Source: Phycisphaerae bacterium (GTDB lineage: Bacteria > Planctomycetota > Phycisphaerae > UBA1845 > UTPLA1). From it: a stretch of 8,565 bases of DNA. The DNA lies in NCBI GenBank assembly GCA_016935885.1, contig JAFGQA010000266.1, positions 1-8,565 on the forward strand. The letters are read 5' to 3'. Below, piece by piece: positions 2,258 to 6,269 of the stretch. Position numbers and translations under genes: made by a program. Each line of letters opens with the position of its first letter. Positions within the stretch are counted from its first letter, which is position 1. The notes under the pieces were generated by a model. That model saw only the letters and a list, made by a program, of their open reading frames with translations. It was not told the DNA's origin and did no database searches.

Positions 2258-2383
2258 CCTGCTGGCTCGCCCTTGACAAGAGCAGGCTTTTGTCAAGGGC
2301 TTGCCGTTTGGCGGACCCCCCGTGGGCGGACACCGTGGCTTGCCGTTTGGCGGACCTGCCCGCCGGCAGGCGGATCAACCGTT
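2214..2383 (+). repeat. Composite dispersed repeat (modules A and B), copy 1
   Basis: Module A (2214-2254) matches the reverse complement of 6229-6269 at 38 of 41 positions. Module B (2336-2383) is an exact 48-bp inverted match to 6173-6220. About 80 bp separate the modules here, against about 8 bp in the other copy. The extra part holds a perfect hairpin and a second copy of gcttgccgtttggcggacc (2299-2317, repeated at 2338-2356, offset 39 bp). Module A supplies the last codons of the GH113-like gene. The right terminal repeat seen in the other copy is missing or unrecognisable. Confidence 0.8.
2270..2299 (+). terminator. Perfect 10-bp hairpin after the GH113-like gene
   Basis: Arms cccttgacaa (2270-2279) and ttgtcaaggg (2290-2299) pair perfectly around a 10-nt loop, starting 13 nt after the stop at 2257. 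No U-tract follows, so it is not a classical intrinsic terminator. It may protect the 3' end or simply be part of the repeat. Confidence 0.35.
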
Positions 2384-2411
2384 TGCGTTGTTTCTACGCG
2401 GCTCCTAAGAT
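2383..2411 (+). promoter_or_regulatory. Candidate sigma70-type promoter for the 2500-3816 gene
   Basis: TTGCGT (2383-2388) and TAAGAT (2406-2411) are separated by 17 nt and lie about 90 nt upstream of the start codon. The -35 box falls on the last base of repeat module B, so the repeat junction may have contributed it. In GC-rich DNA such a match can occur by chance. Confidence 0.3.
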
Positions 2412-2436
2412 CATCGTTACCCCAAAGGCTCCGGAA

Positions 2437-2487
2437 CGCGTCGGGGCCCCCATGGGGCTCCTTGGGGTTCCCCTTTTGTTGTTCTTA
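2437..2487 (+). terminator. GC-rich hairpin region followed by a T-rich run
   Basis: Several short complementary blocks (gcccc-cat-ggggc, ggggttcccc) are followed by ttttgttgttctt (2474-2486). This could terminate readthrough from the GH113-like gene, or act in the leader of the next gene if the promoter at 2383-2411 is real. The alternative foldings compete and none is long. Confidence 0.25.
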
Positions 2488-2499
2488 TGAGGGTGCAAC

Positions 2500-3816
2500 A
2501 TGTTGCTCACACCGACCGTCGCGATCTTTCTCACGACGGGCAGCTTCCAGGCCCAACTCGACCGTCCCCCGCCGCTTACGTTCGACAAGCACATCGACTA
2601 CATCGCCTGGTACAACGACTTCATCCGCCAGGGCAAGAAGAGAAACGCCTACGAGTTGTACAAGGGTTTCTGCACCGACAAGAACGGCCAAGGCGGCATC
2701 CCGGTGATGGAAGGCGTTGTGGGGGAACAATACAACCAGGTGAAGGGGCGGGTCTGGGACACGAAGGACTATCCCGAGCTGGCCGCCTACATCGGGAAGT
2801 GCGCCCCATACTTCGAGATCCTCAAGAAGGCCGTCAAACGCAAAGACTACTGGCAGCCGGCTCCGCCTGACACAAAGCTGCTGCTGTCGCTGATGATGCC
2901 CAATCTTCCGAGCAGCCGCACTGCCGCCAGGGCCCTCGTCGTCCAGGCCTGGATGAAACAAGACGACCAACCCAAGGCCCTGATCGACGCCTACCAAACT
3001 GTGCTGCGAAACGCGCATCACATAGAGCAGGGCAACATGCTCATCAGCCTGCTCGTGGGCACCGCGCTGCGAGCGCTCGTCCTTGAGGATGCCCGAGCCG
3101 CTTTGAGTGAGGAGATCCTCCGCGACGAGGACGTTTCCAGGACGTACAAGATCATTCACCGCTATCCCCCGGACCCCAGAAACAGATCACGTGCCTACAT
3201 CACCGAGTGGACCACGGCATTGGACACGCTCCAGTTCCTCTGTGCCGATGGCAAGATCGACGCATCCCGGTGGAAATCGATCGGATTTCCCCTGGAAGGT
3301 GAACATCCCCTTCGCGGATTCGACCCGAGCGCCACGGTGCGATCCGTCGACACGCGTTTTGGAGAGTTGACGCGCATCGTGGCCGGGCCGCTGACCGTCG
3401 AGACGGTTCGCGAGTCTGAGCGGTTCGAGACCCAGCACGCGCCCACGGTTCAACGCAATCCATTCCTGAAGGTCTTCACGCCGGGCCTCACCAGGTCCCA
3501 TCAACTGCTTGTGCGCGCGGAAGCCAGCCGCCGCGGCACGCTCTTGACGCTAGCCCTTCACGCACACCACGCCAAGCACGGCGAATGGCCCGAGAGCCTC
3601 GACAAGATAGGCAAGAAGCTCGGCCTCAAGGGCCTCGAAGAGTTGCGAAAGGACCCGTTCTCAGACAAGGACTTCACGTACAAGTTGATGGACGGCCAAC
3701 CGCTGCTGTACTCCGTCGCCTGCGACGGCAAGGACGACGGCGGCCGTCACGACGAGAAATGGGGCGAATCCGAGGGCGGTGGCGACTACGTCTTCTGGCC
3801 CTACCAACGGCAGTAG
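2500..3816 (+). CDS. Conserved hypothetical, probably exported protein with C-terminal DGKDDGG/DYVFWP motif
   Basis: I cannot name a function. The start at 2500 is supported by GAGGGTG seven nucleotides upstream and an in-frame TGA at 2488. The 438-aa product opens with an uncharged hydrophobic stretch (MLLTPTVAIFLTTGSFQA) that could be a weak signal peptide with cleavage near residue 18. Residues ~25-340 look mostly helical and resemble no catalytic family known to me. Residues ~348-438 (LTLALHAHHAKHGEWPESLDKI ... DPFSDKDFTYKL ... LLYSVACDGKDDGG ... DYVFWP) match a C-terminal module I recall from planctomycete secreted hypotheticals: a pilin-like helix of the LxxYxxxHGxYPESL type, then a DPFxxxxF...YSVGxDGxDDGG region. 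A 6-bp hairpin follows the stop. The next gene is 436 bp away, so it is probably monocistronic. Confidence 0.7.
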   Translation: MLLTPTVAIFLTTGSFQAQLDRPPPLTFDKHIDYIAWYNDFIRQGKKRNAYELYKGFCTDKNGQGGIPVMEGVVGEQYNQVKGRVWDTKDYPELAAYIGKCAPYFEILKKAVKRKDYWQPAPPDTKLLLSLMMPNLPSSRTAARALVVQAWMKQDDQPKALIDAYQTVLRNAHHIEQGNMLISLLVGTALRALVLEDARAALSEEILRDEDVSRTYKIIHRYPPDPRNRSRAYITEWTTALDTLQFLCADGKIDASRWKSIGFPLEGEHPLRGFDPSATVRSVDTRFGELTRIVAGPLTVETVRESERFETQHAPTVQRNPFLKVFTPGLTRSHQLLVRAEASRRGTLLTLALHAHHAKHGEWPESLDKIGKKLGLKGLEELRKDPFSDKDFTYKLMDGQPLLYSVACDGKDDGGRHDEKWGESEGGGDYVFWPYQRQ

Positions 3817-3820
3817 GATG

Positions 3821-3836
3821 GCGCTTCAAAAAGCGC
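3821..3836 (+). terminator. Short hairpin after the hypothetical gene
   Basis: gcgctt (3821-3826) and aagcgc (3831-3836) form a 6-bp stem with a caaa loop, four nucleotides past the TAG. There is no U-tract, so a terminator role is only possible. Confidence 0.3.
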
Positions 3837-3882
3837 GCGGTGAACCGGCCGAGACGGTGTTGCCGTGCTGGTCCGCGGGAAA

Positions 3883-3930
3883 GGGTCCGAGGGTTTAGGG
3901 GTCCGAGGGTTTAAGGGTTCAAGGGTTCAA
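3883..3930 (+). repeat. Octanucleotide tandem array (gggtccga type), left
   Basis: Six consecutive 8-nt units: gggtccga, gggtttag, gggtccga, gggtttaa, gggttcaa, gggttcaa. The unit gggtccga is the exact complement of the ccctcgga-phase units at 4173-4228, so the two arrays are inverted relative to each other and bracket the four-helix-bundle remnant. Confidence 0.85.
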
Positions 3931-3931
3931 G

Positions 3932-4010
3932 AATGTGGCGTCGCCCCTTGTGGGCGGCGCAGTGAAATGGTATCGAAGCAGGCGCCTGGGACGAGCCCCG
4001 ACGCTACATT
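3932..4010 (+). repeat. Possible small inverted-repeat element
   Basis: aatgtggcgtcg (3932-3943) and cgacgctacatt (3999-4010) are inverted copies with one mismatch, enclosing about 55 bp. The left end starts two bases after the octamer array. Only one copy is in the window, so its being dispersed is inferred from form alone. It sits where the N-terminal half of the four-helix-bundle gene should be. Confidence 0.4.
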
Positions 4011-4016
4011 CAAACG

Positions 4017-4157
4017 TGGGATGCCCTAGAAACACAGTTGCTGCTCTCCAAGGACCCGAAGTTGTGCCGTCATGATGACGTGGTCAAGCTAATCGAGGCC
4101 GTGTGCGAGGTTGAGCGGATGCTCAAGGCCCTGATTAGATCCTTAGAGCTTATCAAC
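4017..4157 (+). pseudogene. Remnant of a four-helix-bundle (S23/IVS-type) protein gene
   Basis: Translated from 4017 this reads TWDALETQLLLSKDPKL, then HDDVVKLIEAVCEVERML, then [11 protein letters not shown]. That matches, from memory of the family, the last two helices of four-helix-bundle proteins related to the 23S rRNA intervening-sequence protein: ...LxELETQLLLARDLGYL...VxxLLEEVxEVGRMLxxLIRSL. The expected N-terminal half (~70 residues with the SxQLRRAAxSVxxNIAEG region) is absent. The open frame reaches back only to a TGA at 3963 and has no good start; the first usable codon is a TTG at 4038 without a Shine-Dalgarno. Downstream the frame runs into the octamer array and then across the start of aspS, so the original stop is gone too. 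It is best seen as a decayed gene fragment. The family's molecular role is not well established. Confidence 0.6.
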
Positions 4158-4172
4158 GCTCCGGCCTTCGCA

Positions 4173-4228
4173 CGCCCGGACCCTCGGACCCCCGGACCCT
4201 CGGACCCCCGGACCCCCGGACCCTCAGA
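4173..4228 (-). repeat. Octanucleotide tandem array (gggtccga type), right, inverted
   Basis: Seven 8-nt units on the plus strand: cgcccgga, ccctcgga, cccccgga, ccctcgga, cccccgga, cccccgga, ccctcaga, then a degenerate eighth. Their complement is the unit of the array at 3883-3930. The array ends 13 nt before the aspS Shine-Dalgarno, so it is probably transcribed as part of the aspS leader. Confidence 0.85.
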
Positions 4229-4241
4229 CCCTCTTTTTCCT

Positions 4242-4245
4242 GGAG
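4242..4245 (+). promoter_or_regulatory. Ribosome binding site setting the GTG start of aspS
   Basis: GGAG lies 6 nt before the GTG at 4252. This decides the start, because the reading matches the expected N-terminus of bacterial AspRS: a short tail, then the [16 protein letters not shown] segment. Confidence 0.65.
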
Positions 4246-4251
4246 ACAACC

Positions 4252-6126
4252 GTGCCTCTACCATACAACCAGCGAACTCACGACTGCGGAGCGCTTCGCG
4301 CCGCCGACGTTGGCCAGACCGTTTTGCTCGCCGGATGGGTTTACAACGTCCACGACCTTGGCGGCATGGTGTTTGTTGATCTGCGCGACCGTGGCGGCAT
4401 CACGCAGCTCCGCTTCAACGCCGAATCGGATTCACCGGTCTACGAAGTCGCCCAATCCCTCCGTAGCGAAGACGTCGTCGCCGTGCGCGGCGAAGTCGCC
4501 CATCGCGGCAAGGACGTCAATCCCCGGATGTCCACGGGCGAGATTGAGGTCGTGGTCAACGAGATCGACCTGCTCAGTAGGTCCAAGACCCCGCCGTTTC
4601 CCATGGACGACGACATCGACACCAACGAGGACCTCCGGATCGAGCACCGCTTCCTCGACATGCGCCGGACGCCGGTCAGGAACGCCCTGCTGCTGAGGCA
4701 TCGGATCACCAAGACGATCCGTGACTACTTCGACCGGCACGGATTCATCGACGTGGAGACGCCCATCCTGAACAAGTCCACGCCGGAGGGGGCCCGTGAC
4801 TACCTGGTGCCGTCGCGTTTGCAGCACGGCAGCTTCTACGCCTTGCCCCAGTCGCCGCAGATCTTCAAGCAGATCCTGATGATCGGCGGCATGGACCGGT
4901 ACATGCAGATCGCTCGATGCTTTCGCGACGAGGACCTCCGCGCCGACCGCCAGCCCGAGTTCACGCAGGTCGATATCGAGATGGCCTTCGTGCAGGCGGA
5001 AGACGTGATGCGGCACGTTGAGGCCTGCCTGGCGGAGGTCATGAAGACGGTCCACGACGTGGATGTGCCGCTGCCCATGCCGCGGATCAGCTACGCCGAG
5101 GCGGTGAAGACGTACGGCCGCGACGCCCCGGATATGCGCTATGGCATGACCATCAAGGACGTCTCCGAATTGGCGGGCAAGACGGGCTTCTCGGTCTTCC
5201 GCGAGGTGTTAGACCGAAGCGGTGTCGTGCGCTGCATCGTTGTGCCGGACGGCGCGTCGATGAGCCGAAAGCAAACCGACGGCCTCGCCGAGGAGCTGAG
5301 GGGCATCGGTGCCGGCGGTATGCCTGTGGTCAAGGTGGCCGAGGAGGGCGGCAAGACGATCTTGCAGACTGGCGTGGCGAAGTTCTTCGACAGCGACGCC
5401 CTGATCGGCGAGCTCCTGGATACCACCGGCGCCAAGCCTGGCGATCTGATCTGTTTCGCCGCCGACACGGAGGATGACGTCTGCAAGTACCTCGGCTGGC
5501 TCCGCACCACCGTCGCCGAGCGCCACGGCCTGATCCCCAAGGACAAGTGGGCCTTCTGCTGGGTCGTCGATTTCCCGTTGTTCGGCTACGACGAGGAGGA
5601 AGGCGGCCTTTATCCGATGCACCACCCGTTCACCAGCCCCAAGGACGAGGACCTGCACCTGCTCGGACTCGCCGCACCCGACGTCCCGCCAAGCCAATCC
5701 CCAATCCCCAATCCGCAATCCCCAATCCCCAATCTCCCCGATCTACGCAAGATCCGAGCCAAGGCCTACGACGTGGTCCTCAACGGCATCGAACTCGGCG
5801 GCGGATCGATCAGGATTCACCGGGGCGACGTCCAGTCCAGGATCTTCGAACTCCTTGGGATCTCCGAGGAAGAGGCCCACGTCAAGTTCGAGTTCCTGAT
5901 GAAGGCCCTGCAATACGGCGCCCCGCCGCACGGCGGCATCGCACTCGGCCTGGACCGCATCGTCATGCTGCTCGGCGGCCACCCATCGATCCGCGACGTG
6001 ATCGCCTTCCCCAAGAACGCCAAGGCGATCTGCCCGCTGACCGGCGCCCCGTCCGCGGTCGCGCAGGCGCAGCTCGATGAGTTGGGCCTCACCGTCGTCA
6101 AGAGCGTTGTCGAGCCGAGGCAGTAG
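4252..6126 (+). CDS. aspS: Aspartate--tRNA ligase (bacterial type)
   Basis: Class II aminoacyl-tRNA synthetase that charges tRNA-Asp with aspartate in the cytoplasm. The 624-aa product has all parts in order. The N-terminal OB-fold anticodon-binding domain is at ~10-110 ([15 protein letters not shown]). The catalytic core includes GFIDVETP and [14 protein letters not shown] (motif 1 region, ~176-189) and [16 protein letters not shown] (motif 2, ~224-239). The bacterial GAD insertion is at ~290-420. Then come HHPFTSP (457-463), GGGSIRIH (516-523) and GLDR (566-569, motif 3). Leu36 is at the anticodon-domain position where some non-discriminating enzymes have His, a weak hint of a discriminating enzyme. 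Between HHPFTSP and GGGSIRIH it is about 20 residues longer than E. coli AspRS as I remember it, and the extra residues include [13 protein letters not shown], encoded by a heptanucleotide array. No frameshift or missing catalytic residue is seen, so it is probably active. Confidence 0.97.
5694..5735 (+). repeat. Heptanucleotide tandem array (ccaatcc) inside aspS
   Basis: Six perfect-phase 7-nt units: ccaatcc three times, gcaatcc, ccaatcc, ccaatct. They total 42 bp (14 codons) and give a 7-residue protein period ([14 protein letters not shown], residues 482-495). The rotated unit CCCCAAT fits the CCCCART type described as STRR in filamentous cyanobacteria. Such arrays are normally intergenic. 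Here the copy number keeps the frame of an essential gene. Confidence 0.9.
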
Positions 6127-6135
6127 TCTGTGTCC

Positions 6136-6153
6136 GCCGAGCGAAGCTGCGGC
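6136..6153 (+). terminator. Small hairpin after aspS
   Basis: gccgagc (6136-6142) pairs with gct-g-cggc (6146-6153) around a gaa loop, as 7 bp with one bulged g, 10 nt past the stop. There is no U-tract, so a terminator role is weakly supported. Confidence 0.25.
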
Positions 6154-6269
6154 GTCGCGCAGGAATCACATGAACGGTTGATCCGCCTGCCGGCGGGCAG
6201 GTCCGCCAAACGGCAAGCCAGAAGGCTGGCCAAGCGGCGCCATCGCGCATGTTATTCCTGCGCGATGCC
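6151..6269 (-). repeat. Composite element copy 2 with 22-bp terminal inverted repeats, between convergent genes
   Basis: The ends 6151-6172 and 6248-6269 are inverted copies matching at 20 of 22 positions; the shared core is gcgcaggaat...acatg. On the minus strand, module A (6269-6229) is followed by module B (6220-6173), in the same order as copy 1 at 2214-2383. Module A also contains the 7-bp stem catcgcg/cgcgatg. The 119-bp element fills most of the 174-bp gap between the ends of aspS and the M28 peptidase gene, so both transcripts may run into it. No transposase and no clear target-site duplication are seen. Confidence 0.8.

Follow-up and report, generated by a model that had tools for sequence, protein, structure and literature searches.

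An in-frame heptamer array in a loop of the aspartate-tRNA ligase of a Phycisphaerae-like planctomycete, probably a recent and tolerated insertion

Tandem, dispersed heptameric repeats, some of them intragenic, have been described in cyanobacteria and Xanthomonas with the units GGGGA(C/T)T and GGGAATC, and in a Nostoc survey of GGGGA(T/C)T 68% were called intergenic, with the role of the heptameric repeats left open (PMC4692102). The array described here is like them, GGGGATT being complementary to its unit, and the parts of that paper concerned do not deal with conserved enzymes carrying in-frame inserts or with one array taking the place of another in the same loop. Rickettsia palindromic elements (RPEs) are likewise dispersed repeats which lie in frame in conserved genes, and a guanylate kinase carrying one has been described as still active (PMC2229807). 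However, these elements are 105–146 bp long with terminal inverted repeats, whereas the array in aspS is a 42-nt tandem without a nearby inverted partner. The intervening sequence (IVS) of Coxiella 23S rRNA has two or three tandem heptamers, in a number which depends on the strain, beside an S23p ORF, the S23p proteins being described as having no known function (PMC4990558). Peptides of the NPQSPIP type have been tabled for a Fischerella aspartate kinase and a Nostoc efflux permease on account of their likeness to gluten peptides, their origin being undiscussed in the parts concerned (PMC8430993); they are presumably read from a coding heptamer identical to the one in aspS. General context is given in PMC6749651, and four helix bundle proteins appear in a gene table of PMC5524665, the relevant parts of which contain nothing on arrays. 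A literature search, thin on subscription journals, returned no description of loop inserts like that of aspS or of array-bounded S23p units.

The window (the whole stretch of DNA that was analysed, 8,565 nt) carries aspS at 4252..6126 on the plus strand, with a GTG start and a predicted product of 624 aa, an aspartate--tRNA ligase (AspRS) of the bacterial type with a GAD domain. The assignment is based on the ORF, on Pfam matches to PF00152, PF01336 and PF02938, and on NF001750, which, at 784 bits (cut-off 443), indicates the full bacterial type. The nearest matches of aspS were proteins and loci of Phycisphaerae metagenome-assembled genomes, and the contig is that of a Phycisphaerae-like planctomycete. 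Compared with the nearest genome (G001) over 605 codons, the gene differs at 92, 47 and 286 first, second and third codon positions, respectively, and is therefore under purifying selection. Solved structures related to this AspRS exist, as found by sequence search.

Six heptamers were identified within aspS at 5695..5736 (plus strand, 42 nt, codons 482–495) by TRF, by a pattern scan and by the comparison of a segment of 59 aa with one of 45 aa. In the CAATCCC register of CCCCAAT, which is the codon register, they read CAATCCC CAATCCC CAATCCG CAATCCC CAATCCC CAATCTC, so that the array is imperfect, with one CCGCAAT unit and a last unit which is also degenerate. TRF reported a period of 7 at 5694–5734 with 5.9 copies and a 94% match. 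With up to two mismatches, CCCCAATCCCCAAT occurred five times in the whole window, each time within the array, while 200 dinucleotide shuffles of the window gave a mean of 0.03 occurrences and a maximum of 1. A first-pass annotation of this DNA had placed six in-frame 7-nt units between the HHPFTSP and GGGSIRIH segments of aspS, and these results confirm it; it was also correct that the peptide has a period of seven residues and that the frame survives only if units change in threes. Its placement of the insert at about residues 470–500 gave the general place, the net insert being narrower, at residues 482–495. Arrays of the class named STRR have a CCCCAAT-type unit in three or more tandem copies and are expected to be mostly intergenic; the copies in aspS are six in tandem and coding. 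A palindromic element of 100–150 bp is not present here, the array being a 42-nt tandem with a best inverted score of 12 within 400 nt.

The segment from HHPFTSP to just before GGGSIRIH (5620..5796, plus strand) has 59 residues in the window. Among the 17 genomes of the family to which G001 belongs, 16 have a complete aspS, each with 45 residues here, and the 14 more distant loci of the class that were parsed all have 36. The gain over the family is exactly 14 residues, that is, 42 nt or six units, and the sequences flanking the array (AGC before, CCC GAT after) match those of the relatives in length and sense, with no extra bases. Relative to the family, the array is an insertion, recent and clean, and like an RPE it is in frame and without counterpart in close relatives. 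An old protein loop of the same length in all close homologues, the alternative named in the first-pass annotation, is excluded by the 45 residues of the 16 relatives, and the proposal of an intergenic-type heptamer set in frame in an essential gene is supported.

Inserts at this place were not confined to the window. Among 70 close AspRSs (69 best hits including the window, plus P0073), and leaving aside the termini and P0073, whose N-terminal region is aberrant, eight inserts of at least two residues were found at internal positions. Four of them (P0001, which is the window, P0002, P0026 and P0050) fall at residues 475–482, a span of at most eight residues, three (again P0002, P0026 and P0050) at residues 367–383 in the GAD domain, and the eighth at residue 63. 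The loop insert of P0002 is AVSGQR, which looks, together with the adjoining residues, like a GCGGTCA heptamer array in translation; that of P0026 is GSPPSQGGV and that of P0050 is EAPAEPGAT, within EGEAPAEP. As peptides, these three inserts look repeat-derived, so that the same segment would carry repeat-like inserts in four AspRSs. In a FastTree tree, read without branch support, every insert carrier has neighbours with 45 residues, and the window, P0002 and the 45-residue AspRS of G001 are close kin, the inserts of the window and P0002 differing in both unit and position. The DNA pattern for CGTGVSPV, which lies inside the GAD insert of P0002, had 210 matches in G001 against none in the control and is present in eight of the 17 family genomes. 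That for EGEAPAEP had 15 matches in G062 and six in G139, again with none in the control, and is present in four of the 17; it had no match in G207, though the AspRS loop of that genome most resembles those of the neighbours of P0050. The GCGGTCA array pattern, the unit suggested for P0002, was found in three of the 17 family genomes, with one match in G001.

We consider it very probable that a permissive loop of AspRS recently acquired the heptamer array as a clean in-frame insert, kept as the frame is preserved and the insert tolerated. The insertion would add 14 residues, and it would be retained since 42 nt preserve the frame, the unit is stop-free in every phase and the loop is tolerant; the array is read in all phases because 7 is not a multiple of 3. 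Tolerance of the 14 residues by the loop is likely, and from the alignment the loop may be placed at the protein surface; the enzyme with its insert presumably works. The array may have been copied from a dispersed array or may have grown by slippage, two routes of arrival that are both compatible with tolerance.

Of 397 genomes of the class, 20 had three CCCCAAT units in tandem with at most one mismatch, and nine had the reversed pattern, a control whose unit is also a heptamer and able to form arrays of its own. When two mismatches were allowed, two of the 17 family genomes had such arrays and 15 did not. The tally of arrays comprised 59 in 55 regions of 20 genomes (19 of the 20 positives of the class survey plus G062), with G208, G124:C352 (contig ends) and places outside the matches listed omitted. 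No fewer than 13 of the 59 are situated within, or between, Pfam domains of a single open frame; this is a lower bound, as 31 further frames spanning arrays (170 aa or longer) fell outside the first coding set and 20 of these were scanned. The products concerned are MqnE-type radical SAM proteins (L140, L155), an ECF sigma factor (L149), a MoeA-type protein (L151), a Ser/Thr kinase with the array between HRD and DFG (L157), a molybdopterin-binding oxidoreductase (L163), a B12-binding radical SAM protein (L169) and its orthologue (L170, assigned by 90% identity to L169), a DNA methylase (L171), an AddA-like helicase (L148), a glycosyltransferase (L158) and, as the only two CCCCAAT arrays of G001, a lipoate-ligase-like protein (L186) and MutS (L187). 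The coding strand is C-rich in 10 of the 13 and the opposite holds in L148, L158 and L187. In the last, the short array is inside domain III of this mismatch repair protein, with the G-rich strand coding. A fourteenth, uncertain case outside the 13 is FlhF (L188), with the array ahead of the GTPase domain, and NusB (L137) and MraW (L141), with arrays near the N-terminus and ahead of the domain, were not counted. The premise that coding copies of such heptamers are exceptional is too strong, given these 13 of 59 and the Nostoc survey cited above, in which 68% were called intergenic (PMC4692102, in the parts concerned). CCCCAAT arrays were also considered as halves of inverted pairs, which they mostly are not: a partner within 400 nt (score of at least 30) was found for nine of 43 other arrays and for none of 15 coding arrays, a set that includes the window and L188. 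A scan of viral contigs with CCCCAATCCCCAATC gave 81 stretches.

The behavior of such arrays over time could be followed between G396 and G068, which are ~90% identical at the loci compared. At L169/L170, a coding array, both genomes have 42 nt, and the 1716 nt aligned there (90% identity) contain no gap. Among five arrays outside supported genes, three differ in length by multiples of 7 (L164/L177 by 14 nt, L166/L190 by 35 and L176/L192 by 21), L172/L193 shows no difference and L167/L191 a complex one. The suggestion that selection holds the frame or copy number is, to this extent, consistent with the data. At two of the three coding loci compared, the loop sequence itself differs between the genomes: CCCCAAT heptamers in L163 stand opposite a GC-rich sequence in the same loop of L189 (144 vs. 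99 nt), and those of L171 opposite an AATTCAG heptamer array in L194 (136 vs. 55 nt), the length differences being multiples of 3 and the frames open. In homologues of the L171 methylase (PF01555, P0121–P0240), of which 106 among the 120 listed were parsed, the loop concerned ranges from 15 to 99 residues; it exceeds 31 residues in 51 and is repeat-like by simple patterns in 27. SRDRKGA is among the repeat-like peptides of this loop. These exchanges suggest that the aspS array is one of a recurrent class, in which repeats settle and replace one another in tolerant enzyme loops.

That the array grew where it lies, by slippage that expanded a single chance heptamer of the aspS loop to six units and without any copying, is a reading to which we give rather less than an even chance. 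The length is an exact multiple of both 7 and 21, no target-site duplication was seen, and the multiples of 7 separating G396 and G068 outside supported genes indicate that slippage occurs. Seeds can arise too, as a single chance CCCCAAT is present in one of 16 family loops (G207, L057), a case which leaves the odds of slippage unchanged because the nearest kin, G001, has none. The other 15 loops, that of G001 among them, are without the unit or any rotation of it. Slippage alone also sits poorly with the variant CCGCAAT, which recurs in arrays of five other genomes (G068, G333, G353, G357 and G396), and with the unrelated repeat-like peptides that have entered the same AspRS loop.

The other way of arriving is suggested by what lies just upstream of aspS. 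An octamer array of the GGGTTCAA/GGGTCCGA type at 3881..3931 and one of the CGGACCCT type at 4175..4233 (both plus strand, detected by TRF) are inverted to one another, 3882–3926 matching 4180–4224 over 45 nt at 78%, and the second ends 18 nt before the GTG of aspS. Between them, to the right of the first, a frame starting at 4002 contains a C-terminal fragment at 4026..4148 (plus strand) with resemblance to four-helix-bundle (S23p/IVP-like) proteins; NF008911 (E = 1.8e-4) and TIGR02436 (E = 0.012) match it below their curated cut-offs, and no Pfam match was obtained up to E = 1. The inverted terminal repeats are able to form a stem, and the fold of 3881–4233 as RNA (z = -6.86) was better than all 100 shuffles. 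From these matches, below cut-off as they are, the stretch is read as a putative decayed four-helix-bundle unit. Its neighbors are protein genes and not 23S rRNA, and the sole Rfam match in 3700–6200 up to E = 1 was a sub-threshold miRNA family.

Several further repeats were observed in the window. Positions 1–89, where the window begins, and 2094–2195, where a GH113 gene ends, are an inverted pair of a dispersed repeat (CGTGVSPV/GETPVP when translated), the core of which has 210 matches in G001. The GH113 gene and aspS are adjacent in G001 (L001), while ~2 kb (2258–4251) lies between them in the window, comprising a 438-aa ORF without a Pfam match, the four-helix-bundle fragment and the octamer arrays. 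More long inverted repeats (61–70 nt, 85–87%), at 2214–2405 and 6151–6269, flank the stretch of this ORF and aspS.

Prompted by the unit upstream of aspS, seven genomes (G001, G068, G269, G333, G353, G357 and G396) were searched with TIGR02436, which gave 37 matches, compared with none in 14 control genomes. Thirty loci were fetched (L284–L313) and 26 scored, three being cut by contig ends and L312 overlapping L307; several of the 26 are mutually orthologous and hence not independent. The two flanks of the gene are more alike inverted than direct in 23 of the 26 loci, with a similarity score of at least 60 in six loci for the inverted comparison and in none for the direct. A tandem run (at least 21 matches in 30) is present in 44 of 52 flanks, as against three of 52 outer flanks and three of 56 flanks of 28 aspS loci, and 48 of 52 flanks have their best period at 7 or 8, vs. 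nine of 52 outer flanks. The unit sequence varies from one locus to the next. The inverted arrays would belong to the unit, because a unit inserted into a single existing array would be flanked by direct arrays. Empty sites were sought for eight units in all (three from G396, five from G068). One unit is bordered on its two sides by GGATTTC and by CCGCAAT/CCCCAAT, respectively. It takes up 455 nt in G396, where its RNA fold is unexceptional (z = -1.61), and is absent from the orthologous site of G068, where 10 nt lie between flanks of 90 and 93% identity; the difference could reflect either a gain in G396 or a loss in G068. The L301 unit is in both genomes, and at L305 G068 has a four-helix-bundle unit and G396 another insert, 965 nt long with an open frame of 247 residues (L315, G396:C1:4987800-4990700). 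L299 and L310 had a single-flank match in the other genome, and L285, L288 and L292 had none among the matches listed. Such planctomycete units share with the Coxiella IVS, as far as the parts of PMC4990558 concerned describe it, a four-helix-bundle ORF, stem-forming inverted ends and heptamers beside the ORF. Unlike the IVS, the window unit lies outside rRNA, and the inverted ends are 7–8-nt tandem arrays of varying sequence.

The aspS array may accordingly be imagined as derived from the terminal arrays of an S23p/IVP-type element, copied on its own and spread by the element family, and this too we hold possible but somewhat short of evenly balanced. The predominance of inverted flanks and their arrays, the unit in G396 flanked by CCGCAAT/CCCCAAT with its empty site in G068, and the decayed unit of like build just upstream of aspS all point this way, as does the Coxiella IVS, with its tandem heptamers beside an S23p ORF (PMC4990558, in the parts concerned); moreover, the left flank array of L284, which starts AGCGGTCAGCGATCAGC, resembles the unit suggested for P0002. 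However, inverted partners are scarce around CCCCAAT arrays and absent around the coding ones, no copying event was caught, and the G396/G068 site is ambiguous as to gain or loss. The inverted score reaches 60 in just six of the 26 loci, three loci do not favor the inverted orientation, and orthologues are included in the count. A wider proposal would make heptamer and octamer arrays in general the termini of IVS-like mobile elements, with an S23p gene between inverted arrays whose period of 7–8 nt is conserved and whose sequence is not, and with arrays that also spread alone, enter tolerant loops of essential enzymes in frame and replace each other; this we regard as doubtful.

An assembly artefact in the number of units, or a chimera, could be imagined for a single contig with one member sequence, and is very improbable given a net length of exactly 42 nt in frame, imperfect units, a GC3 in the aspS frame of 0.90 before the array and 0.84 after it, and similar inserts in independent assemblies. 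An on/off switch of AspRS in some cells by slippage, which the first-pass annotation had derived from six tandem units of a length that is not a multiple of 3, is unsupported and scarcely credible, as contingency loci are typically surface or stress genes with the array near the promoter or N-terminus, whereas aspS is essential, its units are degenerate and lie far from the start (codons 482–495 of 624), the coding array of equal length in L169/L170 is unchanged across 10% divergence, and phase variation was judged unlikely for this repeat class by the authors of PMC4692102 in the parts concerned.

The novelty lies in loops that are used repeatedly and whose contents are exchanged, and in the proposed link to S23p units. 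Short tandem arrays, usually deemed intergenic clutter or switches, appear repeatedly to enter conserved-enzyme loops, and to replace one another there, without breaking the enzymes. If this is true, such loop arrays would be natural maps of insertion-tolerant sites. Through the link to four-helix-bundle genes, heptameric repeats gain an origin that can be tested, and S23p proteins may gain a function: if the element reading is true, they would act in the mobility or binding of the arrays.
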